The notes below the pieces were generated by a model. It had not been told where the DNA came from, ran no database searches, and saw only the letters and a list, made by a program, of their open reading frames with translations. From Hypomesus transpacificus (taxonomy: Eukaryota > Chordata > Actinopteri > Osmeriformes > Osmeridae), in contig NC_061077.1 of assembly GCF_021917145.1 (NCBI RefSeq), positions 11,749,358 through 11,813,357 on the forward strand: 64,000 nt of DNA, in the 5' to 3' direction. This document shows positions 23,524-61,947 of the stretch, in pieces. How positions within the stretch are numbered: the stretch's first letter is position 1; each line of letters opens with the position of its first letter. The position numbers were made by a program, and so were the translations under genes.

Positions 23524-24725
23524 ATGAGTTCCCCTAGCCCCCAACCCTGGTTAATGAGTGAGGCGTTAATACATGTCGTCCCCTGTAGGCGCTGTGACTG
23601 GCTCGTCTCCACGCGCTCACTGACGTCCAGGTCCACCAGACACATAGATGCTGCATTCAGACACAGTTTACCGGTAGTCTCAGCCTCCAAAATACATCTG
23701 AAAACCATCAAGGCTGGTGTTTTAGGGTGGGAAGAGAGGCAAAGCATACCTCAACCTCAGTGGTGACCTTCCGGTAGCTGAGGTTGGTCACAGTGACCTT
23801 GTTTGTGGCCTTGCGGATCTCATGCTCGGGCCTCTTGTTGGGCTTGCCCGCGTACAAAAGATCGCGCAGTGTCTCGTTATATACCTCCACAAAGCTTGCC
23901 GTAAAAGTGTACTAGGGAGAAACGATTTTTGGTATCTGTTACCTCTACTCTACAGTGAGATCTGTATGGTTCTGAAAATGACCTAATTATTTATATTCAT
24001 CTAAGAACCAACCAACCTCCCAGCCCTGCTGGTGGAGACCCTCGGCAGCAGTGAACACTTGCTGGACCGCCCTGGGGATCACACCCCTGCTGGTCTCAGT
24101 CTGACCCCCCTCCATGGTGTAGGTTTTGCTGCTGCCGGTCTGGCCGTAGGCAAAACAGCAGACACTGCATCCGTCCAGGGCGGACTGGACCAGCACGTGG
24201 ACCTCTTCGAATACCTCCTTTTGGCTGGAGGAGGGTCCAAACACCCGATCAAAGGTACATTTGTACTCTTTTGTTTTGTCTGGACGGCCTGTGTTGGACT
24301 GAGGGAGGATAGCAGGTGGGATAGGGAGCAGAATGACATTATCTTCCATGACCATCATTCATGAAAAATAGTCATGGAAAAAAATGACAATTATAAATAG
24401 TTTCTATCTCTAAAATGAGTGAGCAGGTGTCAGAAAAGCACTGGTTCTCATCTGCTGATGTTTGTTAAAAGTAATGGACCTGTTGTCATTGACTGGGAGG
24501 TTAATGAGGTCCATTTGACCTCCAGTAGTTGGTGGGCACACTCAGCAGAATACCCGGATGTTCCCCTGCACAGACTCCTCTTTATTTGCTACTATATTTT
24601 GCAGTTTCTAATTTCTGCATTTTTTATTATAATCATGTCACCATATTCTCTCTGCCATAACTCATCTGAATACATCTTTTTTTTATTCATATTTTCTCTA
24701 TGAATTTATTCATATCAATGCTAAG
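23524..24725 (-). pseudogene. KIFC1-like C-terminal kinesin fragments (copy A), broken
   Basis: Separate exon-like blocks of a kinesin-14 motor. About 24548-24725 is the stalk-to-motor junction, degenerate. Block 24017-24340 holds [38 protein letters not shown] and [11 protein letters not shown]. Block 23750-23911 holds [20 protein letters not shown] and [17 protein letters not shown] with good splice sites. About 23524-23690 is a decayed switch-II region (VDLDVSERVETSQSQ). The P-loop reads GQTGSSKT where functional kinesins have GQTGSGKT, and no neck or C-terminal exons follow. It is best read as a duplicated relic of KIFC1. The motor exon shares its duplication unit with the GIMAP-PYD gene to its right. 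Confidence 0.75.
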
Positions 24726-25698: not shown

Positions 25699-27331
25699 TC
25701 ACCATGTTTCTCCGAGTTTGCTCAGAAAGGGCATGACCGACTTCTTCAGGTCGTTGCGGGGTAAGAACTTCAGGGCGTCTCTCGTCTTTGTGACAGAGTC
25801 GTTTGCTCCAAGGTGTTTTAGTAAAAGCTGCACCAGCGTCACCTTGTCAGCTTTTTCAAGTGCTCCAGCAGGGACCCTTTTCTTGTCATTATTTCCCATT
25901 TGTAAATGTAACTTGAATTTTTTGATATCGTCTTCAAGGAGTTCATCCAGGATTTGACAAAGACTGGTGGTCCACTCATTCTCATCAATGTCATGGCCCC
26001 CTGGTGTGATAGAAAGATAGACTTGTTTCAAACATTATTCAAACATTTAAAAGTTTATCTATAAGTTTACTTTATGTAGAAAGTGCAAATTGAGAGCGTC
26101 TGCTAAATGACTAAAATGTAATACAAATATAATATGTATAGAAAACAAACTAGGCAGTACGAAGACATGACATACTTGGTTTTTTTATGCACTTATCCTG
26201 AGTAACTGGGCTTTGGGCTACTGTGAAAACAAATGAAAAAAGTTATTAACTTGTATGTAATATTTGTTTTAATTGATATCGTTTTTTACATTTTGATGTT
26301 CACCTGATGAGAATGTTTAAAAATCAAGGATTTTTTGTCTATATACTTACATTCAGAAACTGTGTTCACTTCAATTAACTGCTGTGTTTCATTTGGTGAG
26401 TCAGTTCCTTGTGTCGGCATTTGCACTGTTGGACATTGGTTTCTTTTTTTTTCCCCATGTATTTTTTTGATCAATGTTTTCCCCTGTTTTTCCCCTGTAA
26501 CCTCTGTTTCCTCTGTATTGTCTTCCTCATCTGCAGGTGTTTTTATCTGTACTTTAGGGAGCGTTTCCTTCAGATACCTTTGATTGTGGTTTTTTGTCTT
26601 CATGCTTTTTACAGCATCTGTTACCATTTTGCCCTGATCGTAATCAGAGGACTCCTCTCCACTCTTGAGAACAACATACCTCCCTCCACATTTCTGAATC
26701 AGCTCATTAAAAGAATCGACATATTCCTTAATTGTACCGCCTGTCTTATCCACTGCCTCCTCATTAGTGAACACCACCACGGTATGATTCCAGACTCTGG
26801 CCGTCAGCAAACTTTCCAGAATTTTCTGCTCACTTCCGTCAAATGGCTTCGACTTCAAGTCTACGACCAGAAGAAAAGCATCCGTTCCATTTTGAAACAA
26901 CGATCCTTTAATCTGATCTTTTGTCTTCTTTTCAATATTTTCAAGGCTGTACCATCCAGGTGTACGGACAATAGTAATCAGACAGTCATTTACATTACGC
27001 AATTTTCTAACACTAGTTCTATGATTGGATTGCCGAGAAGGAAAAGTCTTTCTTCCAAGGATTATGTTTCCAACAGTAGTCTTTCCTGCAGAATGACTTC
27101 CTATGAGCACAATATTCAATTCTGTAGGATCGTTGCTGGCTTTACACGGGAACACAGACAATAAACAACATAAGTGATAGTACAGTAACACAACATTTGC
27201 ATATATTTAGTTTTGTGATGTGCATATCTTATGTATTACATTTTCTGTAGAGTAAAACAGCAGTTTAGTAAATTCTAATACAAGGTAATAAGCAACTTAC
27301 ATGAACGTAGTTTACATACACAGCTCCCCAT
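25699..27331 (-). CDS. GIMAP (AIG1)-pyrin fusion gene A, 388 residues, 4 exons
   Basis: Predicted membrane-tethered innate-immune protein. Exons on the minus strand: 27301-27331, 26351-27139, 26176-26220, 25699-26000; phases close. Exon 1 encodes MGSCVCKLRS, an N-myristoylation plus palmitoylation-like start. Exon 2 is an AIG1 domain with P-loop GSHSAGKT (about residues 24-31), RTPGW at the switch II position where Asp is expected (R69), FTNEEA at the G4 position, and the typical QKCGGRYVVL. A charged linker follows. Exon 4 is a pyrin-type domain: LDELLEDDIKKFKLHLQ, GALEKADKVTLVQLLLKHLG, LKFLPRNDLKKSVMPFL. A 45-bp exon joins the two. GIMAPs are GTPases of lymphocyte survival and innate defence; pyrin domains recruit ASC-type adaptors. 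The fusion's function is inferred. Remnant SINE tail in intron 3. Confidence 0.8.
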
Positions 27332-29186
27332 TTTCTGTATTTTCAAGTTTGTGTCCCGATATTATGAAAATCAATGTCTTCACCTTTTCGAAAATAGTAT
27401 GAATAATAAAGCAAATCTTGTTTAAGTAATTGTAGCAATAGACAGGGCAGCTAGGCAGCGAGGGATGTGTGCGCCTGTTTCTGCAGAAAGTACACGTGTT
27501 TTGACACGTCGTATCATATTTCAAATCATACATGGTGGTTCTGTGCCAGTGCGAGCTGCCATTGGCAGTTAGTTACTAAACCAGGAAGAGGAGCTGAACT
27601 TCCAGTTCTTCAAAAGTCATGTTTCATTCACAACTTGAATACGATACGATACAAAGAACTTTATTGTCCCGCTCAGGGAAATTTGTCTTGGTCTCTGTGG
27701 TGCGTCATCATAAATGCCTTGACAGTTACAGTAACAACAAACAATACATCCTCAGCCAAACATTATCAACAGTTACATAACAGTATTACACATCCCAATA
27801 GAATGTTGGTTTGAAGTCAATTGTAAACACAGACGTTTTTCTTTTTTTTCACAAATAGATAGTATCTCTTTCTAATTTCCAGTTCTTGGGAACTCCAGCT
27901 CATTTCCAGGCTATGGAATGTGGATTAGGCCTACGCTAGACAAGTTGAGACATTTCAAGACTTTCAGGCCAGCAGTTTAAGAGACAAAAAGACACGTAAC
28001 CCAATAAAACACATTACTTGGTTAGTTCCAAATGACTGAAACCGAAAAAATAACTTGGGAGAAGTAACATCACATGTTGCAGCATGGGTCTTGTTAAGGA
28101 ATGTGTAGCTGTGTAGTGGATAATAATACGAAGGCCCTTCGTTGAGAAAGTGGTCGTGACAGAGATCAGAGAGAGTTCTTCCCATACCAAGTTCTGCCTC
28201 CCTGTCCTTGGGGGAGTGTCTTTGATGGGTCATTGGTCAGAAGACCACAGGGTGGGGATGTGATAGTCCAATTAAATGTCAAAGGTGTTGGGGTGGCACA
28301 AGGTGGGCAGTCCAAGGATCTGGTGTTGTTCAGAGAGGGAGGGGAGCGAAGAAGACCCACAGGTCTAAGGCAATCCAAGGGAGGGGGGGGGCTCCAGAGA
28401 AGGGAGTAGATCGCCCCAAGGTCCTGATGGCGTGCAGGGAGATGGGAGCTGCGCCTCCAAGGAAAGGGGGGGGGGGGGGTCGTGTCTCCAGGAGAAGGGG
28501 TGAGGCAGACTAGGCCAGGGTCGATGATGTATGGGGAAAGGTGGGGTAGGGTCTCCAAGGGGAATGCGGGTGGGGCAGTGTCGATGATGCATGGGGGAAG
28601 GTGGGGTAGGGTCTCCAAGGGGAAGGGGGCCTCAGGACAGAATATATCCAAAGGTGGTCAGACCTGCTGGTCTAAGCCGTCCTTAAACAGAGAAGAGTTA
28701 CTGTCCCAACATTACCTTATCTCCCAAGTTGACACTTTGACTCCCAGAGGCTGAGAGACCCTGTTGTGCTCACTGCCGTCCCTGAGCATCACAAACTCGC
28801 CTCCCAAAACAGTTTGCCTGACATCGGCATTCTTGCCCACACACTGAAGTTACAATTTAGCATGATCTTACTTTGGGATGTGAGAAGTTGTGTGTCTCTC
28901 CTGTATTACTGTGCTGGCTAACTCCCATGTTTACCTGTATTTGACATGTTTACCTGTATTTCTTGTATCTCCTTATATATCAGACGAGGGATTACATTTT
29001 AGACATTTGGTTTCAATGAGAGAAGAATGGAATGTTGGACACAGGTCACATGGATGGAATGTACAACATATTTGATTCTGAAATGACATGGTCTGCTGAA
29101 GTGAAGCTTAAGCCTAGTTTATACTTATGTCGCCGTCACTTTTGAAATGGTCGCCGACGGAAAAAAAAGTGTCACTCAGGCTGGTC
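27332..29186. other. Intergenic, duplication-unit A right edge to unit B left edge
   Basis: Unit A stops matching unit B near 27423. A retroelement-tail-like stretch (ACAAAGAACTTTATTGTCCC) lies at about 27648-27690. At 28490-28640 two GC-rich units of about 69 bp are repeated in tandem (shared GGTGGGGTAGGGTCTCCAAG). No gene seen; open frames there are low-complexity. Confidence 0.55.
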
Positions 29187-29800
29187 CAGGGTGGACTGGA
29201 CCAGGACGTGGACCTCTTCGAATACCTCCTTTTGGCTGGAGGAGGGTCCAAACACCCGATCCAAGCTAAATTTGTACTCTTTTGTTTTGTCTGGACGGCC
29301 TGTGTTGGACTGAGGGAGGATAGCAGGTGGGATAGGGAGCAGAATGACATTATCTTCCATGACCATCATTCATGAAAAATGGTCATGGAAAAAAATTACA
29401 ATTATAAATAGTTTCCATCTCTAAAATAAGTGAGCAGGTGTCAGAAAAGCACTGGTTCTCATCTGCTGATGTTTGCTCAAAGTAATGGACCTGTTGTCAT
29501 TGACCGGGAGGTTAATGAGGTCCATTTGACCTCCAGTAGTTGGTGGGCACACTCAGCAGAATACCCGGATGTTCCCCTGCACAGACTCCTCTTTATTTGC
29601 TACTATATTTTGCAGTTTCTTAATTTCTGCATTTTTTATTATAGTCATGTCACCATATTCTCTCTGCCATAACTCATCTGAATGCATCTTTTTTTTATTC
29701 ATATTTTTCTCTATGAAATTATTCATATCAATGCTAAGGATTGTAACTTTTTTCCAGACCATTTTTCATGTCCAGTAACTCTTTCAACTGCATGTAACAT
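29187..29800 (-). pseudogene. KIFC1-like kinesin fragment (copy B), truncated
   Basis: Near-identical to part of copy A. It keeps the first part of the motor exon ([20 protein letters not shown]) up to about 29187, where similarity to copy A ends abruptly, and the stalk-motor junction (LQNIVANKEESVQGNIRVFC followed by a stop). The nucleotide-binding part is missing. This marks the left breakpoint of duplication unit B. Confidence 0.75.
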
Positions 29801-30162
29801 GCACACGTCAAGACTTGTGTTGTCATTTTCAGCTATGTTCACTTCTAAAGTCACAATGTTTTGACTCCTGCTCCGACATGTGTATAGAGGATGAAACCGG
29901 TTTAATAATAATAATAATAATTTAAAAAATAGGTACCCCTGCAGCTTTGCCCCTAATTAAATTAGGTCCATCATTGGATGACAGAAGACAAGTTAAAAAA
30001 AAAAAAATGTTCTAGACTGCCCTCTAGTGTTAAAAACCCTGCATGTCTCTTGTGCTATGTCTGGAGACATCCTGCCCATCAAATTGGAACACTGACACTA
30101 GTCAGACAGTGGAAACATGATAAGCTTATAGGTCCATGTATACTAGAAAAAAAGTGATGTGA

Positions 30163-30696
30163 TGTCAGAAATATTAATCTTTATCAAGTACTACACAGTC
30201 AGTCGGTGAAGAAGTTAAAAAAGCTTTATTGCTGGCCCCCGACCCACACTGAGTCAAAGACCAAACGCCATGGTGGTCACAAAGTTGTCTGCTAGCATGT
30301 TGTGCTAGCTAACCATTTAAACAAAACCGCTCTCCACAATCATTGGGTCATACACAGGCATGCAACGGTCACATGGCTCTCCTTTCATTGGCTCCCTTGC
30401 AAAGACTTTGCGCTCAAGTGTGCATTCCTTGCAGTGGACATTTACAACATCAACCCTACTCCCACTAGGTGACCAGCTAATGGTCACCAGACCTCAGTCT
30501 CCCTTCTAGCTCTGTCAAACTGTATCTCCTACTAACCCCCAACTCTTCTTAGTCTTCAGCCCCAAGATAAGGGTCTTGTATGTTTACCTAAGTCTGAATC
30601 TTGCCAACAGTTCATTTGGGGGTGGCCTCTCTAAACACAAGGCTAAACACAGTATCATTTAATACACAATAAAAGGTTACATCTTCAACTTTTCTG
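30163..30696. mobile_element. MITE-like nonautonomous DNA transposon (copy B)
   Basis: Same element as at 24919-25455, in the same place relative to the flanking gene; left flank TGTGA intact, right end slightly eroded (TCTGACGTGA). It was inserted once before units A and B separated. Confidence 0.65.
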
Positions 30697-30940
30697 ACGT
30701 GAAAAAAAGTATCAATTGTGTTCATGGCCACTGTGCAAGCAGTAACAAGAAGTAGAATGAACACATGAAAAAACAGCAACACAAAAAAAGTTTGTAATGA
30801 TTGCTCAATAACATTCTTTAAATGTAATCGTTTGTCATAAAATACCATATTGAATCTAAGTTGGTATTTATGAAGATAATGCAGTCCATCATACAGTCCT
30901 GAGAATGGTTCATTAGAATGACTTTCATTACTTCAGTCCA

Positions 30941-32748
30941 TCACCATGTTTCTCCGAGTTTGCTCAGAAAGGGCATGATCGACTTCTTCAGGTCGTTGCG
31001 GGGTAAGAACTTCAGGGCGTCTCTCGTCTTTGTGACAGAGTCGTTTGCTCCAAAGTATTTTAGTAATAGCTGCACCAGCGTCACCTTGTCAGCTTTTTCA
31101 AGTGCTCCAGCTGGAACCCTTTTCTTGTCCTTATGTCCAGTTTGTAAATGTAACTTGAATTTTTTGATATCGTCTTCAAGGAGTTCATCTAGGATTTGAC
31201 AAAGACTAGTGGTCCACTCATTCTCATCAATGTCATGGCCCCCTGGTGTGATAGAAAGATAGACTTGTTTCAAACATTATTCAAACATTTAAAAGTTTAT
31301 CAGTATAAAGTGCAAATTGACCACACATTTTCTAGTTTAAACATTATTATTATTATTGTTAGATCATAATAATAATGATTATGGGGTTCAGATGGCTGAG
31401 CGATTAGGGAATCGGACTACCAATCAGAAGGTTGCCGGTTCGATTCCTGGCCGTGCAAATGATGTGTCCCTGGGCAAAGCACTTCACCCTATTTGCCTCG
31501 GGGGGAATGTCCCTGTACTAACTGTAAGTCGTTCTGGATAAGAGTGTCTGCTAAATGACTAAAAATGTAATACAAATATAATATGTATAGAAAACAAACT
31601 AGGCAGTACGAAGACATGACATACTTGGTTTTTTCATGCACTTATCCTGGGTAACTGGGCTTTGGGTTACTGTGAAAAAATGAAAAAAGTTAATAACTTG
31701 TATGTAATATTTGTTTTAATTGATATAGTTTTTAACATTTTGATGTTCACCTGATGAGAATGTTTAAAAATCAAGGATTCTTTGTCTATATACCTACATT
31801 CAGAAACTGAGTTCATTTCAATGAACTGCTGTGTTCCATTTGGTGTGTCAGTTCCTTTTGTTTGTTTTTTCCCAGGTATTTTTCTCTTCAACGTTTCCCC
31901 CTGTTTGTCCCTTGTAACCTCTGTTTCCTCTGTATTGTCTTCCTCATCTGCAGGTGTTTTTATCTGTACTTTGGGGAGAGTTTCCTTCAGATACCTTTGA
32001 TTGTGGTTTTTTTTCTTCATGCTCTTTACAACATCTGTTACCATTTTGCCCTGATCGTAATCAGAGGACTCATCTCCACTCTTGAGAACAACATACCTCC
32101 CTCCACATTTCTGAATCAGCTCATTAAAATAATCTACATATTCCTTAATTGTACGGCCTGTCTTATCCACAGCCTCCTCATTAGTGAACACCACCACGGT
32201 ATGATTCCAGACTCTGGCCGTCAGCAAACTTTCCAGCATTTTCTGCTCACTTCCGTCAAATGGCTTTGACTTCAAGTCTACGACCAGAAGAAAAGCATCC
32301 GTTCCATTTTCAAACAACGATTCTTTAATCTGATCTTTTGTCTTCTTTTCAATATTTTCAAGGCTGTACCATCCAGGTGTACGGACAATAGTAATCAGAC
32401 AGTTATTTACATGACGCACTTTTTTAACACAAGTTCTATGATTGGATTGCCGAGAAGGAAAAGTCTTTCTTCCAAGGATTATGTTTCCAACAGTATTCTT
32501 TCCTGCAGAATGACTTCCTATGAGCACAATATTCAATTCTGTAGGATCGTTGCTGGCTTTACACGGGAACACAGACAATAAACAACATAAGTGATAGTAC
32601 AGTAACACAACATTTGCATATATTTGGTTTCATGATGTACATATCTTATGTATTATATTTCCTGTAGAGTAAAACAGCAGTTTAGTAAATTCTAATACAA
32701 GGTAATAAGCAACTTACATGAACTTTGTTTACATGCACAGCTCCCCAT
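30941..32748 (-). CDS. GIMAP (AIG1)-pyrin fusion gene B, 378 residues, 4 exons
   Basis: Sister copy of gene A. Exons on the minus strand: 32718-32748, 31798-32556, 31625-31669, 30941-31242; phases close. Exon 1 encodes MGSCACKQSS (acylation-like start). The AIG1 domain has GSHSAGKN, so the P-loop Ser/Thr is Asn, and RTPGW at switch II. The linker is shorter than in A by about ten codons. The pyrin-type domain is nearly identical to that of A (LDELLEDDIKKFKLHLQTG, GALEKADKVTLVQLLLKYFG, LKFLPRNDLKKSIMPFL). A whole SINE lies in intron 3. No internal stop was found, so it looks expressible. Same orientation as A and about 5.2-5.4 kb apart. Confidence 0.8.
31382..31572 (+). mobile_element. tRNA-derived SINE in GIMAP-PYD B intron 3
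   Basis: tRNA-like head with A box TGGCTGAGCG and B box GGTTCGATTCC (Leu/Ser-tRNA-like), a body with GGGGGGAATGTCCCTGTACT, and the 3' tail GATAAGAGTGTCTGCTAAAT then GACTAAAAATGTAA. Not a functional tRNA gene. The corresponding intron of gene C is empty and that of gene A keeps only the last 30 or so bases. Confidence 0.85.
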
Positions 32749-33599
32749 TTTCTGTGCAAGTTTGTGTCTCGATATTATGAAAATCAATGTCTTCACCTTT
32801 TCGAAAATAGTATGAATAATAAAGCAAATCTTGTTAAAAGAAAAATGTTTACCACATTATTAAAAGTAACTGACATCTCTATTAATGTTGACAGGAATGC
32901 TTTTGCAGATCTGCACCTACTCAAATGATCAAAGTTAACTGCACCTCTCAGATCTAGATGACTCTCAGTTATACCAGCAAGAGGTTAGAGTTTTGAGCCT
33001 AATCATCTCATCAAGCTCACCACATGCCCACAGTTTGAGCACACTTCCTGTCGATGCCTCTATGAAGCAATTAAATGTTCTGCAACTCCTTTCTCCTCTT
33101 TCCACACCCCACTATACTGGCAGTTTTACATGCACTGTAATCATAATACAATATGCAATGCAATTATACTAGATCTGGTGAAGTTCTTATGGGACTCAAC
33201 TATTATACTAAATCCAGTTCAAGTCCTTAAACAACCTTTACGAAGGCATCCCTTCCATCTGACCTGACCTCCATTGCTTTTATAGGGTGTTCTGGATTAG
33301 AGCGTCTGCTAAATGACTAAATGTGTTGGTCATCCGATGTTATGCAACCTCTAGTTTTCCATTGTACAGATGCATCTGTTGTACAGGGAAAGTTGTGACA
33401 TCACCCACCATTACTAGTTTCCTGAGGGTAAGACCAGCGGAGGAAGTACCTGTGATGCTTTTGAAACGTAACAAGGCAACACACTGACTGACACAATCTC
33501 ACTAATGTAGATCTCTTTATCGTGGAAGATGAAACAACTTTGACATTAATCTGTTCTATTACTGTATTTATCACTTAGACAGTAGACAACTGGGTTAGA

Positions 33600-33765
33600 C
33601 CGGGAGACAGAGAGATAAGAGCAACAATCAAAGAGCGAGAGGGAGACAGATAAACAGAGACAGAGAGATAAGAGTGACAATCAAAGAGAGAGAGAGAGAG
33701 ACAGATAGACAGAGACAGAGAGACAGAGAGATAAGAGTGACAATCAAAGAGAGAGAGAGAATCAG
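33600..33765 (+). repeat. GA-rich tract at right end of unit B
   Basis: Imperfect GAGA/CAGAGACAGAGAGATAAGAG units. The same flank plus GA tract recurs at about 39040-39123, at the corresponding end of unit C. Confidence 0.8.
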
Positions 33766-35762
33766 CATAGAAATACGACACAATATTTTATGTTTCAACT
33801 TTTTAATATTTCTCAATCAACTTTAACGTTGTGTCAGGATGTGATTCTATCTGCAGCTAGAAGAGAATTAAAATTCATATGAACTAATGAAAGTTCTGCT
33901 TTCCAAGAACCTCAAAGGAAGCTGTACTTCTCAGTACACCCTCTCTTTCTCAGCCTTAAGAACAGTTTCAAACCACAACCACTGACCAAGTGCCATTGAA
34001 GAATTCGAGTGGCGCTGTGTAGATCTGAATAGTGAAGGGATATGGTTTTAATACAATTTATTTAGACTATACAATTACATATGATTAAACAAAGCTTTGC
34101 TGATCAGTCTCAACGAAGGAGGTGCCATCCACACAGATTGTTCGTAAGAGTGATAGAGAACTATCACACATGCAATGCCTTATATAAACTTTAGATCAAA
34201 TGGCATTCTATAAGGTCAATCAATTAATGTAGCAAACTCTGTGATTGGCTAACTCAACTTAGTAACAGCTTGAAACAATACATCTCCAGTGTGTCCCAAA
34301 GTTCTTTGATGTCACAGCTCTCTCCAGAGCAGTAGATAATAAAGCCACAGGGGTTGACCAGTCAAATGGTCAACTGTCCTTTATGTGACCATCTTCAAAC
34401 AATACTTTTAATTAACACAAACAATGAAACAGGACACAGTCCTTCTAGCCAAAGTTCAGAGCAACTGTCTCATTGACCCCTTACAGTGACCAGAGGACAG
34501 AAGACCATATAAGATGCTTCACCCATCCCCAAGCTGCCCACAAAGCCATCAGCACCTCACATTCCTTTGAACTCAACTTATATTATATTCCTGTCTCTTA
34601 CCAATGAACATAGAAGATCATAGATTTCATACACATACATTTATGCATATGACCAACATTTCTACCACACCAAGCTGTTTTTAGGGCCCTGCTGGTTACA
34701 TGTGTGATCCTCTTCGTTTGTGTCAGTAGGTTTGTCTCTGTAACAGTCCTCTTTAAGAATCCTAACCCCTTTTATCCCCAGTTAATGCACGTTTTAAAAT
34801 GTATATTGGGTATTGAGTAGTTTTTCTGAAATAAATGAAAGACCAGTTTTCAAACGTTAGTTAACAAAGTCTGTTCATCTGTACAGTATAACTACTGGTT
34901 TTCATAGAAAATGGCTTCATACAAAGTTGTGAATACTGTTTTTTATTTAAAAGTAAACAATCCGAAATTAGAAATGATAAATGTTTGATTTAAAAAAAAA
35001 TTATGTGGAGGAAAATAAACTATATACACACACTTAGGGTGTGTCTTAATCTTGTCAGGTTTATAGTGCAGACACTGAAAAATGTAAGCCAAAGCTCTAG
35101 TTTTCAATGAAAGAAAATACAGTAAAACGTGAATAATAGCAAAATTGAAAAATACTATATTAATACAATGATGGTTTATTTGATGTAGACTGTATAACTA
35201 TGGCATCATTGATTGTAGACTATATCAGCATAGCTATGGGATAAATGATAAAAGTCTATATTACATGTCGTCTAAATCTACTGCATCGGTAACGTGGAGC
35301 GGAAAGCTTCTTGACTTGTGTATGGGCTGAGTCTACACTAAAACCCCAGAGGGACTAAGCACCTAATTGATGCGCTTGTTAGATGTAAAATAACGTTCCA
35401 ACCTTGCATTCTTGGTTAGGCAAACTTTATTTCTCACGGTAAAATCCAATTCATAAACATGTCCTTACATCCAAACTTGCATCTAATTTACATGTAACAT
35501 ACCTTTTGTTATACAAATGAAGCGGTCAAAAAGCTATATGCGCTCTCCCTCCGTCAAGCAACACCTGACGCCTGCGTGAATGTTCACACCTTTATTGTGT
35601 GAGCCCAATTAAGGTGGAGCGCCATCTAGAGTCCCAAACAAGATTAAAACATGAACCGAAATGGCTCCTACACAGATTATTTACTATATATAATATTACC
35701 CGTGGTCAGTTATTTAAAGTGATTTCATGTTTCCTAAGTCATTAGAATGAAGAGTCCCTCAC
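33766..35762. other. Intergenic, no gene seen
   Basis: AT-rich sequence between unit B and the orphan RRM exon. No convincing coding block, repeat family or RNA gene was recognised. Confidence 0.5.
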
Positions 35763-35955
35763 CCTTTTTTCTCCAGGAAGGCAATCCTGTAGGTCTTCTC
35801 TCCCACCTCCTCCACCTCTCCACATTCCCCTCCTACATTTCTCCTGATATTAAAGTATCTCTTGATCCGCTCCTTGTCTGTGTTAGTCAGATGTTTCACC
35901 TCAAAAAACACAGCAAGCTGGAACCTGTAATGTTTTGCAGACAACGCTCTGCCTT
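35763..35955 (-). pseudogene. PARP14-like first (RRM-like) exon, orphan copy
   Basis: Encodes AVFFEVKHLTNTDKERIKRY and GGECGEVEEVGEKTYRIAFL with the conserved donor. The start codon of the intact copies is changed here (ATG to AAG at 35953-35955) and no second exon follows to the left, so it is a relic. Its flank runs continuously into the 3' flank of GIMAP-PYD gene C, as in the unit at 43.5-44.6 kb. Confidence 0.75.
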
Positions 35956-36517
35956 TTCGAATAAGTCTGGTCGTCTGAAACAAGTTTAGGCAATGTTCAC
36001 GTTTTGACTTTCATTTTCACACTTCAGAACAGGAAAGCAGGTGGAGCATCGTCAACACTTTTTTTTCACATGCGTGTGATGATGCAAGTAAAAAAAAGCT
36101 ATATTATAGACTGTCCTCTACTGTTTAAAACCCTGCATGTCTCTTGTGCTGTGCCTGGAGATATCCTGCCCATCATATCAGAACACAGACACTATTCAGA
36201 CAGTGGAAACATAATAAGCTTAAAGGTCCATGTATACTAGAAAAAAAGTAATGTGATAAAAGGTATCAGTTGTTTACATGGTCACTGTGCAAGCAGTAAC
36301 ACAGAAGTAGAATGAACACATGCAAATAATGAAAACAACTTTCTAAAACAGAAACACAAAAAAAACGTTTGTAATGATTGCTCAACAACATTCTTCAAAT
36401 GTAATAATTTGTCATAAAATACGGGATTGAATCTCAGTTGATATTTATGAAGATCACGCAGTCCATCATGCAGTCCTGACAACAGTTCATGAGAATGACT
36501 GTCATTACTTCAGTCCA

Positions 36518-38190
36518 TTACCATATTTGTCCGAGTTTGCTGAGAAAAGGCTTCAGCCACTCCTGCAGGTCTTCACAGGGTATGCTCTTCAGGGCATCCC
36601 TTGTCTTTATGACAGAGCCGTTTACTCCAAAGTGTTTTAGTAATAGATGCACCAGCGTCCCCCTGTCTGCTTTTTCAAGTAGCCCACCTGGGATCCTTTT
36701 CTCGTCTGTATGTCCAGTTTGTAAATGTGACTTGAATTTTTTGATATCGTCTTCAAGGAGTTCATCCAGGATTTTACGAAGACTAGTGGTCCACTCCTTC
36801 TGATCAATGTCATGCCCCCCTGGTGTTTTAGAAAGATAGACTTGTTTTAAACATTATTCAAACATTTCAATGTTTATCAGTATAAAGTCCAAACTAACCA
36901 CACATTTTCTAGTTTAAACATCATTATTATTATATCATAAAAATATAATATGTATAGAAAACAAACTAGGCAGTACGAAGATATGACTTTACTCTTTTTT
37001 TCCATCCTCTTATCCTGAGTAACTGGGCTTTGGGCTACAGTGAGAAAAATAAAGAAAATATATTTAGTTGTATGTAGCATTTGTTTTATTTGATCGAGTA
37101 ACATTTTAATGTTCACCTGATGAGAATGTTGTTTAAAAATCAAGGATTCTTTGCCCATATACTTACATTCAGAGATTGTGTTCATTTCAATGAACTGCTG
37201 TGTTTTACATTCTTTTCTTTTTTCTTTCTGATGAACTCTCTCTGCCTTCAATTTCCTTAATCTCATTTCAGTTTCATCAATCTCTCTGTCCAATAGTTCC
37301 CCCTGTAGCAGGGGAGTTGTATTGTCTTCCTCATCTGAAGGTGTTTTACTTTCCCCATTATTGATCTCCGGTGTCGACAAAAGTCTTGGAGCATTTACCA
37401 TGCGGGTAGGGCTACTCTGCACTTCGGGGAGAGTATCCTTCGGATAACTTTTATACTTGTTTTTCTCCATCCTCTTTACAGCATCTGTTACCCTTTGGCC
37501 CTGAGCGTAGTAAGAGAACCCATGTCCACTGTAAAGAACAACATACCTCCCTCCGCATTTCTGAATCAGCTCAGTAAAATCAGGATCTATGTATTGCTCA
37601 ATTGTAAGGCCTCTATCATTCAGTGTCTCCCCATTAGTGAACACCACCACGGTATGATTCCAGACTCTGGCGGTCAGTAAATCTTCCAGCATTTTCTGCT
37701 CACTTCCGTTAAATGTCTCCGACTTCATGTTTATGACCAGAAGATAAGCATCCGCTCTATTTTCAAATAATGATTCCTTGATCTGATCTTTCGTCTTCCT
37801 TTCACTCTCTTTAAGCTTGTGCCATCCAGGTGTGCGGACAATAGTAATCAGACAGTTATTTACATTATAAACTTTTTTAACACAAGTTCTAGAACAGGAT
37901 TGCCAAAAAGTCTTTCTTCCAAGGATTATGTTTCCAACAGTATTCTTGCCTGCATTATGACTTCCTATGACCACAAGATTCAGTTCTGTAGAATATTTGC
38001 TGGCTGTACATGAGAACACAGAGAATAAACAACATAAGTGATACTACAGTACAGTAACATATATTTGGTTTTGTGATGTGCACATCACATAGTAATACAT
38101 TACCTGTAGAGTAAAACAGCAGTGTAGTACATTCTAATACAAGGTAATAAGCAACTTACATGAACGTAGTTTACATGCACAGCTCCCCAT
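36518..38190 (-). CDS. GIMAP (AIG1)-pyrin fusion gene C, 403 residues, 4 exons
   Basis: Third close paralogue. Exons on the minus strand: 38160-38190, 37167-38003, 36993-37034, 36518-36819; phases close. Exon 1 encodes MGSCACKLRS. The AIG1 domain has GSHNAGKN at the P-loop, RTPGW at switch II and QKCGGRYVVLYSG. The linker is longer (about 25 codons more than B) and rich in charged residues with a short helical stretch (ETEMRLRKLKAERVHQKEK). In exon 3 the ancestral CAG acceptor reads CTG and the next TAG three bases on can serve instead, removing one codon in frame. The pyrin-type exon is intact: LDELLEDDIKKFKSHLQTG, GLLEKADRGTLVHLLLKHFG, LKSIPCEDLQEWLKPFL. It lacks the MITE and SINE of A and B. 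Confidence 0.78.
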
Positions 38191-39243
38191 TTTCTGTACA
38201 AGTTTGTGTCTTGATATTATGAAAATCAATGTCTTCACCTTTTTGAATATAGTATGAATAATACAGAAAATCTTGTTTAAAGAAAGTGTTTTACTACTTT
38301 GTTAAAACTACTGACATCTCTATTAATGTTGACAATGCTTTTGCAGATCTGTACCCACTCAAATGATAAAAGTTACACGTTTCGTCTCAGATCTAGACTA
38401 CTCTCAGTTAAAGCAGCAAGAGGTGAGATGTTTAGGCAGTTGATCAAAACAAATGTTTTGATATCTATTTCCTGTCGTTCTCTTCCAGCTCACCACATGC
38501 CTGAGACAGTTTCAGCTCAGCGACACCAAAACATCAGCACACTTCCGCTCAAAGCTGAGGTACAAGAAGCCTCTATGAAGCAGTTAAATGCACCTTCTTT
38601 ATCCTCTTTCCACACCCCACTATACTGGCAGTTTTACATGCACTGTAATCATAATAAAATATGCAATTATACTAGATCTGGTGAAGTCCTTATGGGACTC
38701 AACTATTATACCTAATCATTTTAAGTCCTTAAACAGCCTTTACCAAGGCATCCTTTCCATCTGACCTGACCTCAATTGCTTTTACGGGTTGTTGGTCATG
38801 TGATCTTATGCTACCTCTAGGTTTCCATTGTACAGATACACCTGTTGTATAGGAACAGCCGTGATATTACCCAGCATTACAAGTTCCTGTGATGCTTTTG
38901 AAATGTAACTAGGCAACACACTGACTGACACAATGTCACTCGTGTAGATCTCTTTATTGTGGAAGATGAAACAACTTTGACATTAATCTGTTTTACTTCT
39001 GTATCTATCACTAGACAGTAGACAACTGGGTTAGATTGTGAGACAGAGAGATAAGAGCGACAATCAAAGAGAAAGAGAGATAATCAGAGAGAGAGAGAGA
39101 GAGTGAGAGAGAGAGAGAGAGAATCTGTGTCTTTGAAGACACTTTCCATTTCCCCAATTCCATTACAGTGTTTTACCGTGTTACATTAATAAACTGTGTG
39201 CCTATATTGTCGACACAACTCCACACCCCTCAGGTGTCAACGT
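38191..39243. other. 5' flank of GIMAP-PYD C and GA tract
   Basis: 38191-39030 matches the right end of unit B (32749-33600), so it is duplicated promoter-side flank. A GA tract follows at about 39040-39123. From about 39123 the sequence matches the segment starting at 61945. Confidence 0.6.
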
Positions 39244-42200
39244 TCAACTCCATATGCTCCCCAGAACAAGTTTCACCATCCAACTCCACAGCGTCTCCGA
39301 GGGTAACAGCTGCTCTGCAGAACGTCTGAATGCCAGGAAAACGTCCATCTTGAAGAGGACGAGGCGAACCAGTTTGAGGTGGTGGAGAGGAGTGGAGGAT
39401 GCCGTTGCCGTGACTCCCTGGAGAATGCTGTCTGCCACCAGCTCAGGGTCCAGCCCCCCCTTACCTACGTGATGACATCATTACAGCACATCATTATATT
39501 ACATCACAGAAAGTGAAGATCCAGTCATTTACAAACAGGGATGTATTTTTACGACTGCCCAATCATTCTCAAACATCCCAACATTTTGGAGATTAATGTT
39601 GTTATTAAGTTTATTGTGTTATATATAATATCTGAGAGTTTAGGTTGGATATCAATATGAATACATGGGCAACAATGATGGTGCCATCTCTGGTGCCTGG
39701 CATCATCTCCAGGCAGCAGGAACACTGACCTGCACTGATAGCAGGGATGGCCACTGACTGGTATCCTTTCTGGTCACATGTCTTCATGATGTCACTGACC
39801 AGGCCTTGGATCACGGTGGTGTTGCTCTGTCCCCACACGTGCAGAAGGGACTTGCAGGGGAATTGACCAGGCTTGGTCTCATACAACCCTCCTCTGGTCA
39901 CATGGGCTAGCGGAGGAACGGATCAGAACAGTCTTAGTTCACTGACCTCAGACCAGCTTGGTGAGAGGTAGGAGGCTGTGAAGGCGGAAAGACGATTTAT
40001 CACCTGATCTCAGTTCAGTTTCCACCTCAGGTCCGGCCACGGTCAGGATATTTTTGCATACAGCTGCAAGGAAGTAAATAAAATAAACACAATTCTGATT
40101 TGTTTACTATTTAAGTTAACAAGAATCAATGAATCTTACTGCTCAGGTTATTACCTGACTGTAGGTCAACAAAGTCAGTCGTGTTGACAATTACGTCTGT
40201 CTTCTCGTTGGTGATGTCACCAAAGACCACCTGCACTTGGACTCCTCCCACTTTCAGCGTGACGTCATCCAGCACAAAGGTCAGTGAGCGGAAGACTTGA
40301 GAAAAAAGAAAAAGTTCTTGTAAATGAAGGAGGGATAAATACACTCAGTTTATGGTACTTGCTGTGTCACGGGGTCACCAGTCTATTAATTTATCAATAA
40401 ATCAAGCTTGCCTTGTCCTCTCACGTTCAGCATTTTGGAGTTGAGGTTCCTGTGCACATCCTGAAAGCTCTGGAATGACAGTAAAGGTATTTAACAGCCA
40501 TACTATCCATTTACTTTACTCGTCATTTCAAATGTCCTATTTGTCTTCAAAACAAATTCATTCAGGGGATTAGCAAGGATTAAGGTCTTTTTTCAAAGGG
40601 AACCCTGCTTACAATGATAACTTGGTAATAAAAAATGATGGATGAAGGTTTATTAAATCTAACAGCTCACCTCATCAGAGTCAGGATACCCAGGCTTGAT
40701 CACGATGCGGATGGTTGAGATTAATCCTGTAGATCCTGACCACCCAAACTTTATAATCTCTTCAGTCACAATACGTATCGCCTCATGCAAAGGGAATTTG
40801 AGAGCTATCCCAGGTCCTATCACGGGCAGAGCCACCGAACTCAGGCCCTGCTGCCTGCACATGTCCAGAACCAGGACGAGTCCAGTACGTAGTGCCTGTA
40901 TGGGGGACAGAGTTTCCATCTGGTAAAGCCACGTTATTGTGCACGGGTTAAATAGGGGACACTCTTCTGACAATGAGTATCTGCAGTTATCAATTTGCTT
41001 CACTTACTATTTCAAATGTCATATATATTATTGAATAAAAAAACTTTACAAAAAACATACCTTCTCACTTTGACCCTGTGCTGCATCCCAGGGCAGGCAC
41101 TCTATAAAGAAGACCTTGCGTTTCCCGAGGAACGAGGACAACTTGACTTCCAGGACCTCCCCTGCAGTACGACACTGCCCCCCTGCTGCTAGGTCAAAGC
41201 TGGCCTTGACTTTGCTTGATTGTCTACTCAAACATTTGCCTATCTTGCTGGAGCACAGTTGTGTTTTCATCATGGGGACCACCAGGGCATCCACCTGTAT
41301 CACAGTAGAGGAGAATACCAGGTCTTCGTTAAAAGTTAAGATTAGTAGGCAGATGAGACTAATGAGTTGAAGAAAGGATTTGCGGTACCTGCTGGTCTTC
41401 CAGACTGCCGAACACAACCTCCAAGCCTGCTTGGCTGAGAGTGTGACTTGTGGGAGCTGGATGAGGACTGCTCCCTCTAGTGGAACTAGCTGTACTTCCA
41501 GCCTGAGTGGCATTTCCTGCTCTGAGAGACTGGGTTCCAGACACGCCAACACCAGGTTCTTGTGATCGAGAGGGTGTAAGTTTCACGGCTGCTTGTGGCT
41601 TCGTACCCGTCAAGCCTTTGTGAGCCTGGTTGAGCTGGTAGTCCACTAGTATCTTCTTGAGCCTCCCCACCTCTTCACTGTAGCCCACCAGTTGCACTCT
41701 GGTCCTGGGGTCTCCACAGGATCCTTGCTGGTATTTGACCACCACCCTGGGTCCTGTGACATTGGCCTCATCCAGGGCTTTTCTTAGGGCTTCCTTCAGC
41801 CTGTCCAGTGCTGGAGATTGGCCCAAAGCTCCCTCTAGTGGCTCAGTGAACAAGCACAAGTCCTTCAGAACCATGGATGCAGCTTCCTCTAGGGCATCTG
41901 ATGACAAGCTGGATAGGATCAGGTCCGATCCAATCTCCAGAGCAACTGGGCAGCACAGGCTTCGCTCAAAGCAGGCCTGGAATCTGGAGACAGAATCACT
42001 GGCCTTCATGAAGTCTAAGTTAATCTTGGGAAGCTGAACCAGTTTTTCCTTTATCATTTTTACAAGCTCTTGTAGTTTTGTCAATCCCAGCTGAACTTCT
42101 TGGTTGGGTCCCTCGAGGATGAGATTGTTGGGTCCATTTTGGGAGATCTTCACTCCGGGGCTGAGGACCCTCAGTTCCTTCTCAAGCTCCTCCTTCACCA

Positions 42201-43707
42201 AGTAGTACTGTCTCTCTGACACTGGCCAATCATTCCTTGTCTGGTTCTTCTCCTCCAGCATCTTCAGCTTCTCCTTCACATCCCCTATTCTCCCCACCAC
42301 CACCACAGCAAAGTCCTCCTCTTCCAAGTACACCTTCACATCCTCAGTCTCCAGGGCAGCCATATTCGACTTTAAGATCTTCATCTTCGTTGGCTCCACC
42401 TCATAGTGGGGACGGTAGAAATTCTGCACACTATTAAAGATCTGCTCCACCTGCAGAACCCATTCAAGTAGCGTTGGCCTGGCAACTGGCCCCGCCCCAG
42501 CAGCCTCACCCTTCACCACAGCCTGCTCTGTCTCTGGGGAGAGCTGGACGGAGGATTTGAGGGCGATGAGCTGTTTGTTCAGAGCCTGGTTTGCCTTGGG
42601 ACAGTCCCTGAGGTACTGGAGGAGGTATTGGTCCATGATGAACACCTTCTCCAGCTCCTTACTGCTAGATGGGGTCTGAGAGAAAAAGGAGGGTCTGAAT
42701 GGGTGTCCTGTTTGTATGTATTATGTGATAACACATTACACGAAAACAGAATGTCTTTGTTAATTGTAACATCTTCGTGTTTTTAATACATAATATGTGG
42801 GTGATATCTATGGGGGAACATTGCTACACACTGAAAAACGGAAGAGTGAACAACCTCAGCAGAATGTGGTTGAGTCTGTGACACGGCAAGGTACTCTCCA
42901 CTCTGCTGGTAAACATCAAAACCGGTTTGCCAACATACTGTACCACCAAGACAATTGTCAAGTGTGGCTTCTGTACATTCCTAAATATTATTTGTTATGA
43001 ACGAAACATTCATTTTATTTGCCTCAATTTCAATATTTATTAAACACACTTGCTTTACGACAGTCCCTTGGTATTGTGACCCACCTGTTGGTCGTCCGAG
43101 GGCAGCTGTGGAGGTTGATGTGGATCTGTGGAGTCAGGAGACCGTCTGTCTCTCACTGAGACACACAGCTCACCACCTGGCAGGGGGATCACATGGTCTC
43201 TTCTCTCCAACACTCTCTCCTGGACTGGGGGTCAAAAATAAGACAGGAAGTGAATTGACCAGTTAAATTCATACATTTGTTAATGACAGATTATTTACTA
43301 TTATTTACGGAGTCAGATGGCTGAGCGGTTAGGGAATCGGGCTAGTAATCAGACGGTTGCTTCGACTCCCGGCCGTGCCAAATTACGTTGTGTCATTGGG
43401 CAAGACACTTCACCATACTTGCCTCAGGGGAATGTCCCTGTACTTACTGTAAGTCGCTCTGGATAAGAGCGTCTGCTAAATGACTACATGTAAAGAAGAG
43501 TCCCTCACCCTTTTTCTCCAGGAAGGCAATCCTGTAGGTCTTCTCTCCCACCTCCTCCACCTCTCCACATTCCCCTCCTCCATTTCTCCTGATATTAAAG
43601 TATCTCTTGATCCGCTCCTTGTCTATGTTAGTGAGATGCTTCACTTCAAAAAACACAGCATGCTGGTACCAATTATCTGTAATGGTTTGCCTACAACGCT
43701 CTGCCAT
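39244..43707 (-). CDS. PARP14-like gene lacking WWE and PARP catalytic domains (RRM-KH-macro-macro), 913 residues, 10 exons
   Basis: Exons on the minus strand: 43509-43707, 43085-43224, 41389-42675, 41061-41294, 40671-40895, 40412-40469, 40155-40295, 40004-40063, 39730-39906, 39244-39464; all phases close. Exon 1 is RRM-like (AVFFEVKHLTNIDKERIKRY). Exon 3 is a long KH-like region (MDQYLLQYLRDCPKANQALN). Exons 4-5 form macro domain 1 and exons 6-10 macro domain 2 (VVFGDITNEKTDVIVNTTDF, SVAIPAISAG). Exon 10 reads past the position where the full-length paralogue splices on and stops 22 codons later (LGSIWS then stop). No WWE or catalytic exon follows before the next gene, so it should bind ADP-ribose without transferring it. 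Exon 3 is 72 codons shorter than in the paralogue, in frame. Intron 6 uses a GC donor. Confidence 0.85.
43310..43493 (+). mobile_element. tRNA-derived SINE, tandem copy 1
   Basis: Same SINE family as at 31382; head GTCAGATGGCTGAGCGGTTA, tail TAAGAGCGTCTGCTAAATGA. It lies in intron 1 of the shorter PARP14-like gene and ends just downstream of the exon 1 donor. Confidence 0.85.
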
Positions 43708-44260
43708 TTCTAACAAGTCTGGTCATCTGAACCAAGTTTAGGCAATGCCCTTCAAGTTTTGACTTTCATTTTCACACTTCAGAACAGGAAAGCAGGTGGA
43801 GCATCGTCGACACAGACTTTTTTTTGTCACACCCGAGTGATGAGACAAGTAAAAAAAAAAAAAGCTATATTATAGACTGCCCTCTAGTGTTTAAACCCTG
43901 CATGTCTCTTGTGTTGTGCCTGGAGACATCCTGTCCATCATACTGGAACACTGACACTATTCAGACAGTGGAAACATGATAAGCTTATAGGTCCATGTAT
44001 ACTAGAAAGTGATGTGATAAAAAGTATCAATTGTGTACATGGCCACTGTGCAAGCAGTAACAAGAAGTAGAATGAACACATGCAAATGATGAAAACAGCA
44101 ACATTACAAAACAACAACACAAAACAATTTTTAATTATTGCTCAATAACATTCTTTAAATGTAATCATTTGTCATAAAATACGGTATTAAATAACAGTCA
44201 GTATTTATGAAGATATTTCCATTGTGCAGTCCTGAGAATGGTTCATTAGAATGACTTTCA

Positions 44261-44559
44261 CTACTTCAGTCCATCCCATGATTCTCCAAGTTTGCTGAGA
44301 AAGGGCTTCAGCAGGTCCTCAAGGTTGTTGCAGGGTACTTTCTTCAAGGCATCCCTAGTCCTTATGACTGAGCCTTTTACTCCAAAATGTTTTGGTAATA
44401 GATCCACCAGCGTCTCCTTGTCAGCTTTTTCAAGTGCTCCTTTTGGGATACCGTCAGAGTTTAAATACATCTTGAATCTTTTCATATCATTTTCATTGAG
44501 TTCATCCAGGATTTCAAGAAGACATCTGGTCCACTTCCTTGGATCAATGTCATGGCTCC
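44261..44559 (-). CDS. Pyrin-type last exon, tandem copy 2 (possible alternative last exon of GIMAP-PYD D)
   Basis: Identical copy of exon 4 of gene D, 1374 bp downstream of it. Encodes LDELNENDMKRFKMYLNS, GALEKADKETLVDLLPKHFG and LKKVPCNNLEDLLKPFL and keeps its splice acceptor and stop. It could be spliced instead of the proximal copy, or it may be an unused orphan. No AIG1 domain of its own is present. Confidence 0.6.
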
Positions 44560-44683
44560 CTAATGTGATAGAAAGATAGACTTGTTTTAAACATTGTTAA
44601 TTCATTTAAACATTAACCTGTTGAAAACTTGAGACACTAACAACATACATTTGTTAATGACAGATTATTTACTATTATTTACG

Positions 44684-44867
44684 GAGTCAGATGGCTGAGC
44701 GGTTAGGGAATCGGGCTAGTAATCAGACGGTTGCTTCGACTCCCGGCCGTGCCAAATTACGTTGTGTCATTGGGCAAGACACTTCACCATACTTGCCTCA
44801 GGGGAATGTCCCTGTACTTACTGTAAGTCGCTCTGGATAAGAGCGTCTGCTAAATGACTACATGTAA
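44684..44867 (+). mobile_element. tRNA-derived SINE, tandem copy 2
   Basis: Identical duplicate of the SINE at 43310-43493, carried by the 1374-bp tandem duplication and not an independent insertion. Confidence 0.85.
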
Positions 44868-44882
44868 AGAAGAGTCCCTCAC

Positions 44883-45081
44883 CCTTTTTCTCCAGGAAGG
44901 CAATCCTGTAGGTCTTCTCTCCCACCTCCTCCACCTCTCCACATTCCCCTCCTCCATTTCTCCTGATATTAAAGTATCTCTTGATCCGCTCCTTGTCTAT
45001 GTTAGTGAGATGCTTCACTTCAAAAAACACAGCATGCTGGTACCAATTATCTGTAATGGTTTGCCTACAACGCTCTGCCAT
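44883..45081 (-). CDS. PARP14-like first (RRM-like) exon, tandem duplicate (possible alternative first exon)
   Basis: Identical to 43509-43707, with start codon and donor intact. It could serve as an alternative first exon for the PARP14-like gene at 39.2-43.7 kb, which would make transcripts overlap the distal pyrin exon, or it may be silent. Confidence 0.55.
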
Positions 45082-45634
45082 TTCTAACAAGTCTGGTCAT
45101 CTGAACCAAGTTTAGGCAATGCCCTTCAAGTTTTGACTTTCATTTTCACACTTCAGAACAGGAAAGCAGGTGGAGCATCGTCGACACAGACTTTTTTTTG
45201 TCACACCCGAGTGATGAGACAAGTAAAAAAAAAAAAAGCTATATTATAGACTGCCCTCTAGTGTTTAAACCCTGCATGTCTCTTGTGTTGTGCCTGGAGA
45301 CATCCTGTCCATCATACTGGAACACTGACACTATTCAGACAGTGGAAACATGATAAGCTTATAGGTCCATGTATACTAGAAAGTGATGTGATAAAAAGTA
45401 TCAATTGTGTACATGGCCACTGTGCAAGCAGTAACAAGAAGTAGAATGAACACATGCAAATGATGAAAACAGCAACATTACAAAACAACAACACAAAACA
45501 ATTTTTAATTATTGCTCAATAACATTCTTTAAATGTAATCATTTGTCATAAAATACGGTATTAAATAACAGTCAGTATTTATGAAGATATTTCCATTGTG
45601 CAGTCCTGAGAATGGTTCATTAGAATGACTTTCA

Positions 45635-47637
45635 CTACTTCAGTCCATCCCATGATTCTCCAAGTTTGCTGAGAAAGGGCTTCAGCAGGTCCTCAAGGTT
45701 GTTGCAGGGTACTTTCTTCAAGGCATCCCTAGTCCTTATGACTGAGCCTTTTACTCCAAAATGTTTTGGTAATAGATCCACCAGCGTCTCCTTGTCAGCT
45801 TTTTCAAGTGCTCCTTTTGGGATACCGTCAGAGTTTAAATACATCTTGAATCTTTTCATATCATTTTCATTGAGTTCATCCAGGATTTCAAGAAGACATC
45901 TGGTCCACTTCCTTGGATCAATGTCATGGCTCCCTAATGTGATAGAAAGATAGACTTGTTTTAAACATTGTTAATTCATTTAAACATTAACCTGTTGAAA
46001 ACTTGAGACACTAACAACAAAAGCTAGCTTGAATGGGTGAATGTACTTATGTTATTTGGAATTACTCATGGCAAAATATTTGTTGCCATTTTTTCACCCT
46101 TCAAAAAGGATTGTCTCTTGGCCTTCTGTATAACTCCCATTTTTATTCTATTGAAATACTTTTTTCTATTCAAACTAAACTCACTTGGTGGAGACGATGC
46201 GGACATCTTAATTTCACGGTGTTCTGTGTTCTTTTTTGGTTTCATGGAAGGGACCACTGGACGTTCTCTGATGGTGGGAGTCACACTCTGCTCTTGAACT
46301 AGTTTTTGTTCTTTTTCCTTCCTCAGGTCTTCAATTTTCTTCGTCAGATCTTCATTTTCTTTCGTCAGGTCTTCATTTTTCTTTCTTAGGATCTTGCAAC
46401 TTGGACAATCACGATTGGTCTGTCCATTTACATGACCCACATGTTCTGTGAGTCTCTGAATCAGTTCATCTTTCTTCTCTATAATGTTTGTCAGTCGCGC
46501 TATCTCAGCATCTTTTAATTTAATTTCTTTTTCGAATTTTTTCTGATTGGATGGATCCTGAGATTCTAGTTTCTTATGGGTAAGGAGGATATTAACATGA
46601 ATTTTTAATAGACTAACTCTTTTACAAAGCTTCAGTTTGATTTTTTTCGCCATTTTTTCTTTTTCTTCTGGGCTTGTTTCATTCTTCAGACAGAAATGTG
46701 TATCTTCATTAGCAGCTATCACCTCCTCTAACTTCTCGATTAGGCTCTCGACCTGATCATTGGAGGACTTACTTTTGGCATGTAATTTAAAATATCTGTT
46801 TTGACATTTGTTTACCAGGTCTTCAAGGTTGTTTGATTCAATGTAAGTGTCAATGGTACATTGTTGCAGCCTCTTTCCGCTGGTGAACAGAATCATTGCA
46901 TGATCCCAAAACCTGGGACCAAAACGCTTGGTCAGAAAGTCTGTTGTTGCACTGAGATGGTTTGAATAACGTGTGCCAACACGAATAACTAGCAGTATTA
47001 TGTGTGGCCCATGGGTATGTGGAGGCTCTATACAACGCACAGTATCAGTTTTTATCTGATTTTCACTATGCAAAAGATGTTTGAAAGAGCCTGCAGTGCG
47101 AACCAAAGTGATTTGTCGATTACAGATTTCCTTTATTATTTTTTTGTGATGTTTTTGAAAAAAGGTTGGGCTAAATTTGAACTTCTTTTCTCCAAGGATG
47201 ATATTTCCAGCTGTATTCTTTCCTTCTCCTCCAATCAGCACAATGCCAATGTTGTGAAATAGAATATTCTCTAGACATCTATTCCTTCCTTGAAGACAAC
47301 AAAATAACATAGTTATGAGATGGCAGTGCAAAGACATGTCCATGTTAGTATTAACCACTGTGTGATGAATAAATGAGTTCCTAGCCAAAACTTACCTAGT
47401 TCATCATTATGAAGAAGTTCCATTTGGTCAGTATCTATTGAAGAGATTTAAAGCATAAAATAAATACATTTTTCCTTCAAATTACACAATGTTGTTACCA
47501 TGAGGAATGATATGTTATTTTTTCAAAAGTACCGTTTTTAAAGTTAACTAATCAACAATGATTAAATTATTGATGAATTCTTGATTTATATGACATGGAC
47601 ATAACTTACCAGCTGGACGGCTTCGTCTGTTACCCAT
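45635..47637 (-). CDS. GIMAP (AIG1)-coiled-coil-pyrin fusion gene D, 489 residues, 4 exons
   Basis: Diverged fourth member. Exons on the minus strand: 47610-47637, 47396-47434, 46185-47288, 45635-45933; phases close. Exon 1 encodes MGNRRSRPA, a myristoylation-type start. The AIG1 domain is degenerate: the P-loop is shortened (GGEGKNTAGN), switch II reads RTAG and G4 reads FTSGKR. A coiled coil follows (RLTNIIEKKDELIQRLTEHV and repeats of NEDLTKENEDLTKK) with a CPSC pair. The GTGAGT donor at 46184 joins in phase to the pyrin-type exon (LDELNENDMKRFKMYLNS, GALEKADKETLVDLLPKHFG). If that donor is skipped the frame reads through to a stop at 46066, giving a 429-residue form without the pyrin domain. 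An identical second pyrin exon lies 1374 bp further on. Confidence 0.75.

Positions 47638-61794: not shown

Positions 61795-61947
<153 letters not shown>

Follow-up and report, generated by a model that had tools for sequence, protein, structure and literature searches.

An immune GTPase of fish that ends in a death fold has been described in zebrafish, where Gbp4 carries a C-terminal CARD and needs Asc (PMC4932187). In the sections of that study drawn on here, the GTPase activity of Gbp4 is dispensable for Asc oligomerisation, and its GTPase-deficient KS-to-AA form reaches the speck yet inhibits caspase activation in a dominant-negative manner; the GTPase-deficient mouse protein GBP5(S52N) failed in rescue and showed no dominant-negative effect. 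The AIG1 domain of GIMAPs has also been found joined to death-fold domains, in invertebrates. The snail Biomphalaria glabrata has DD-CARD plus AIG1, DD-Fas plus AIG1 and other AIG1 combinations (PMC7053062), and amphioxus has an N-terminal CARD plus AIG1, in some cases with HINT (PMC12373286), according to the portions of these papers considered.

GIMAPs and pyrin-domain (PYD) proteins are separate genes in the covered portions of five fish papers (PMC6771007, PMC6690157, PMC3472715, PMC10413685, PMC6972705). Within the partial texts at hand, the term 'pyrin' is absent from a review of GIMAPs (PMC8201404), the term 'GIMAP' is absent from a review of teleost inflammasomes (PMC9978379), and a survey of death domains names GIMAP-like GTPases solely within bacterial systems (PMC8195603). 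The parts of the open-licence literature surveyed contain no direct tie between fish GIMAPs and inflammasome parts, and the roles of these proteins are unclear there.

The window analyzed here, a 64-kb stretch of DNA from Hypomesus transpacificus, contains a family of four genes in which an AIG1 head is followed by a C-terminal PYD. The first-pass annotation had proposed this family, with the correct coordinates, strand and number of genes:

27331-25699, minus strand: gene A, with exons 27331-27301 (MGSCVCKLRS), 27139-26351 (AIG1, P-loop GKT), 26220-26176 (linker) and 26000-25699 (PYD, stop)
32748-30941, minus strand: gene B, with exons 32748-32718 (MGSCACK), 32556-31798 (AIG1, P-loop GKN), 31669-31625 and 31242-30941 (PYD)
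38190-36518, minus strand: gene C, with exons 38190-38160 (MGSCACK), 38003-37167 (AIG1, P-loop GKN), 37034-36993 (weak donor) and 36819-36518 (PYD, middling acceptor)
47637-45635, minus strand: gene D, with exons 47637-47610 (MGNRRSRPA), 47434-47396, 47288-46185 (AIG1, shortened P-loop with GKN) and 45933-45635 (PYD)

These genes share with Gbp4, as it is presented in the sections cited above, the plan of an immune fish GTPase with a C-terminal death fold; Gbp4, however, joins a GBP GTPase to a CARD and needs its activity, whereas here AIG1 is joined to a PYD. With the snail and amphioxus proteins, as far as the covered text describes them, they share the joining of AIG1 to a death-fold domain, but the invertebrate proteins have an N-terminal CARD or death domain and the fish genes a C-terminal PYD. 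The architecture had been thought to be uncharacterised. This holds for PYD plus AIG1 in the open-licence literature searched, where no description was found (one may be published elsewhere), but not for AIG1 with a CARD or death domain, which is in print for snail and amphioxus. What is new is consequently a variant, the C-terminal PYD on a fish AIG1 protein, within an already known type of fusion. Models combining AIG1 and PYD are likely already present in public fish annotations.

The domain assignments come from a Pfam scan of nine open frames of the window. PYRIN (PF02758) was found in all five last-exon frames at 47.2, 50.7, 51.2, 52.8 and 52.8 bits, the cut-off being 22.9 bits, and AIG1 (PF04548, cut-off 27 bits) in all four upstream frames at 99.3, 106.4, 83.6 and 99.8 bits. 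The pyrin identity first suggested for the last exon thus stands on profile evidence, and it extends to solved structures: the exon matches the pyrin domains of NLRP, Pyrin, ASC and AIM2 proteins (best E 1.8e-07), and a structure model of it has six helices, albeit with a pLDDT of 64. The best solved relatives of heads B (E 1.6e-12) and D (E 1.2e-16) are GIMAP2 and GIMAP7, whose Ser aligns with the P-loop Asn of the two heads. No GBP GTPase model appeared among the head matches of the Pfam scan at E up to 1, and the heads are AIG1.

Genes A, B and C have a common layout consisting of a 31-base exon 1, the AIG1 exon, a linker exon of 42-45 bases and the PYD exon. In gene D the AIG1 exon is long and follows two short exons, and the PYD exon is again the last; this AIG1 exon contains, after the P-loop part, a long charged heptad-like stretch with weak coiled-coil Pfam matches that fall below cut-off. 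Exon ends and starts were picked by eye, and in the resulting spliced models every intron is GT-AG and of phase 1 and the only stop is terminal, in agreement with the closure in codon phase claimed at first pass. Splice sites were scored with a weight matrix and ranked against all GT or AG dinucleotides in the window. Donors exceeded the 96th percentile in 11 of 12 cases, the exception being the third donor of gene C (76th), and the 12 acceptors spanned percentiles 74 to 99, with values of 95.8 (A), 95.8 (B), 78.7 (C) and 91.7 (D) at the PYD exons.

Profile searches of the whole genome (437 Mb, 376 contigs) listed 23 PYD and 136 AIG1 matches. In four of these 23 PYD matches the start is 800-975 bp away from that of an AIG1 match, and all four are in this window, a comparison made with the AIG1 matches on the contigs concerned, a subset of the 136. 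This pairing is more than chance would give. The models were drawn from sequence, which leaves room for a reading in which AIG1 and PYD exons belong to different, alternating genes; we consider it very improbable, given that order, strand, codon phase and start-to-start distance (0.80-0.98 kb) recur in four of four genes. The AIG1-PYD fused genes are with high probability a real architecture, and would be spliced in vivo as modelled from the genomic sequence.

Other features accompany these genes. Repeated open frames, similar between both stretches, occupy 39611-42720 and 55109-62745 on the minus strand of the window, and three of them contain a macro domain (39614-39922, 56863-57159 and 62440-62745; 24.7-27.9 bits). 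We take these frames, which lie between and beside the GIMAP-PYD genes, to be duplicated PARP-type genes. A kinesin motor fragment at 23987-24358 (minus strand, 94.9 bits) and a shorter second copy recognized by eye at 29172-29369 (minus strand) form an apparent duplication near genes A and B. Elsewhere in the genome, locus L095 (G000:C30, 137-1800) has a strong pyrin exon (82 bits) that closely precedes an open frame of 403 aa, for which no Pfam or NCBIfam match was found at E up to 0.01; a pyrin fusion to an unassigned 403-aa protein is possible at this locus.

The four heads were aligned with 116 other AIG1 stretches of the same genome, which cover 121 of the 132 other AIG1 matches (the 11 left out are mostly short) and include a few rows, such as L035, in broken reading frame. 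At the Ser/Thr position of the P-loop (G1), gene A has Thr and genes B, C and D have Asn; in the 108 other rows readable at this position, one of which reads X, Ser occurs 78 times, Thr 7 times and Asn never. At the Asp position of G3 all four heads have Arg, a residue found in one of the 112 other rows with a letter, 74 of which have Asp and 38 of which do not. Degeneracy of G1 or G3 is therefore not special in itself, because many other AIG1 copies of this genome deviate at one or the other, but the Asn in the P-loop is. The head is probably no longer a normal GTPase, and the sensor suggested at first pass becomes doubtful as a working GTPase because the heads carry changed G1 and G3 residues. 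The Ser/Thr-to-Asn change, confined here to pyrin-bearing genes, is the kind of change introduced in the laboratory into GTPase-deficient GBP5 (S52N; PMC4932187), which, going by the sections cited, would be its closest counterpart.

All four models start with Met-Gly, as MGSCVCK in A, MGSCACK in B and C, and MGNRRS in D. These starts fit the N-myristoylation pattern and are presumably possible sites, and we take the Cys beside Met-Gly in A to C to be possible palmitoylation sites. The membrane tether envisaged earlier would accordingly be plausible through a lipidation motif rather than through a helix. The C-terminal PYD, the G1 and G3 changes and the Met-Gly motif distinguish the fish genes from human GIMAP2 and GIMAP7, with which they share the AIG1 domain.

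The genome also contains an ASC-type gene, L106, in which frames for PYD (70.1 bits) and CARD (68.5 bits) are neighbours, 0.6 kb apart on the same strand, a layout from which we would name it ASC. Its exons, together with the P-loop Thr kept in gene A, are in keeping with a protein that senses infection or membrane damage, clusters and nucleates ASC specks, in effect a new GIMAP inflammasome. Gbp4 lends this idea a precedent, since in the covered text the same layout drives Asc-dependent caspase activation and Asc oligomerises without GTPase activity. The same text, however, has caspase activation by Gbp4 requiring that activity (PMC4932187), and the Asp-to-Arg change at G3 in four of four heads and the Ser/Thr-to-Asn change in three of four argue against such a sensor, which we regard as unlikely.

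The number of pyrin copies exceeds the number of genes. The count of four genes was right, but it needs to be supplemented with a fifth PYD exon, identical to that of D, and a sixth, diverged copy on contig C20. The relevant features of the window, including the cassette discussed below, are:

43270-46019: exact tandem duplication, 43270-44645 being identical to 44644-46019 (1376 bases each, 1.4 kb)
44559-44261, minus strand: extra PYD exon, identical to the last exon of D, PYRIN above cut-off
44866-45984, minus strand: PYD cassette, the similarity of D to A, B and C setting in at 45984, which is 51 bases upstream of the exon

The extra exon, 2.3 kb from the AIG1 match of D, owes its existence to the tandem duplication. 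The copy on C20 (L009) is preceded by an AG acceptor and its frame is open; the 3.3 kb upstream revealed no AIG1 frame, and the nearest AIG1 matches are about 36 kb upstream and about 5 kb downstream.

An identical duplicate behind D and a C20 copy with no AIG1 detected in the 3.3 kb before it speak for PYD exons that are copied and decaying and rarely or never spliced, the genes yielding plain GIMAPs that end in or just past the AIG1 exon. Read-through of the AIG1 exon donor points the same way. It meets a stop within about 300 bases in each gene (26286-26350, 31667-31797, 36877-37166 and 46066-46184, minus strand), and pyrin-less isoforms are therefore possible in each. For the PYD exon, dN/dS amounts to 0.31 in the pair A-B and to 0.63-0.85 in the other five of six pairs; the latter values, and those of 0.85-1.13 for the AIG1 exon among A to C, indicate that purifying selection is weak. 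Against decay, the five distinct PYD exon sequences are all open, an outcome with a chance of 0.4% in a substitution-only star-tree simulation, which overstates its strength because A and B share history. Furthermore, an internal length change of 15 bases in D is in frame, and genes A, B and D have strong donors ahead of the PYD exon. On this evidence we hold exons in decay to be an improbable account of the family.

Comparison of the PYD exon with its 3' flank gave an unexpected pattern. Differences between A and D numbered 70/282 in the exon versus 18/198 in the flank, and those between B and D 68/282 versus 18/197 (P < 2e-05), an excess of about 24% over 9% that includes synonymous sites. 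No excess was seen between C and D (61/282 versus 43/203), and the relation was reversed between A and C (48/297 versus 54/220, P 0.02). Conversion of the flank, an older exchange of the exon and diversifying selection could each account for some of these differences.

Head and tail of gene D have different histories. Relative to A, B and C, its dS is 2.2-2.5 in the head, which is saturated, and 0.30-0.37 in the tail. The cassette extends in one piece to about 45385 when compared with A and B (0.6 kb, 78%) and to 44866 when compared with C (1.1 kb, 83%), and upstream of it DNA similarity is limited to a 41-base stretch at the P-loop. Such a low tail dS beside a saturated head, with a sharp edge of similarity, indicates that copying or conversion passed the tail from an A/B/C-type gene to D, or in the reverse direction. 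The tail of D is far younger than the divergence of its head, and the tail thus spreads as a cassette.

Gene D may have captured the cassette from an A/B/C-type gene separately, in which case the architecture arose twice at this locus, or a single fusion may have been followed by gene conversion of the tail; both histories are compatible with the readings of function. The contrast in dS and the edge 51 bases before the exon, leaving aside the 41-base stretch, argue for separate capture. So would the best other heads for D, which are ordinary GIMAPs (36-38% identity) that outscore A, B and C. However, D shares GKN with B and C and the G3 Arg with A, B and C, and this sharing of Asn and Arg would favour a single old fusion with later conversion. 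The head tree, for which 84 of 91 rows were used, also has a branch that sets the four heads apart, at a support of 39/76 and with a long-branch warning. We give separate capture slightly less than an even chance.

In the tree of PYD sequences the tail joins first the pyrin exon of a FIIND gene, L011 (99/96), and next the PYD of ASC (91/87). By profile score the kinship with FIIND fares less well, an NLR-type PYD (L104, in a gene that carries the fish-specific NACHT-associated domain FISNA and NACHT) scoring 51.8 bits, slightly more than the 49.4 bits of the FIIND gene. The locus of the latter (L011, G000:C176, 1525-4954) consists of FIIND frames followed by a pyrin exon on the same strand, at 43.5 bits, and order and strand suggest one FIIND-PYD gene. 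Like the genes of the window, to which its PYD is closest by tree, it has the PYD behind the rest of the gene; unlike them, it has FIIND in place of AIG1. In known fish NLRP1, according to the partial text of the teleost review, a CARD would be expected where L011 carries a PYD (PMC9978379).

No clear interferon-type promoter sites were found. Our preferred proposal, to which we give an even chance, is that the family encodes lipid-anchored GIMAPs with a degenerate GTPase that dock ASC-type pyrin domains and tune speck formation. The GIMAP-like protein would probably be anchored through its N-terminus, and on membranes its head would most likely form pairs, either with a second copy of itself or with an ordinary GIMAP, which would determine how densely pyrin tails are packed locally. 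Docking of the tail to a PYD, that of ASC or that of an NLR with a pyrin domain, would then tune the formation of specks. This effect may be of either sign; we lean to restraint because the head is degenerate. By analogy with the GBP mutants, a GIMAP whose P-loop has Asn and whose G3 has Arg might dock ASC through its pyrin tail without completing a GTP-driven step, and we favour a modulating or decoy role more than that of a classical sensor. GBP5(S52N) lacks a dominant-negative effect in the cited sections (PMC4932187), which is evidence against a simple dominant negative; the dispensability of GTPase activity for Asc oligomerisation in the same study likewise counts against restraint.

A broader and rather doubtful scenario would see here a pseudo-GTPase branch of the GIMAPs, in which the loss of the P-loop Ser/Thr and of the G3 Asp went hand in hand with the acquisition of a portable C-terminal pyrin exon copied from a FIIND-type gene; its members would be platforms for ASC, anchored by lipid, that set a threshold or act as natural dominant negatives. 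A pyrin domain carried by a GIMAP itself would link fish GIMAPs to the inflammasome in a single molecule, and would make the question of such a link testable.
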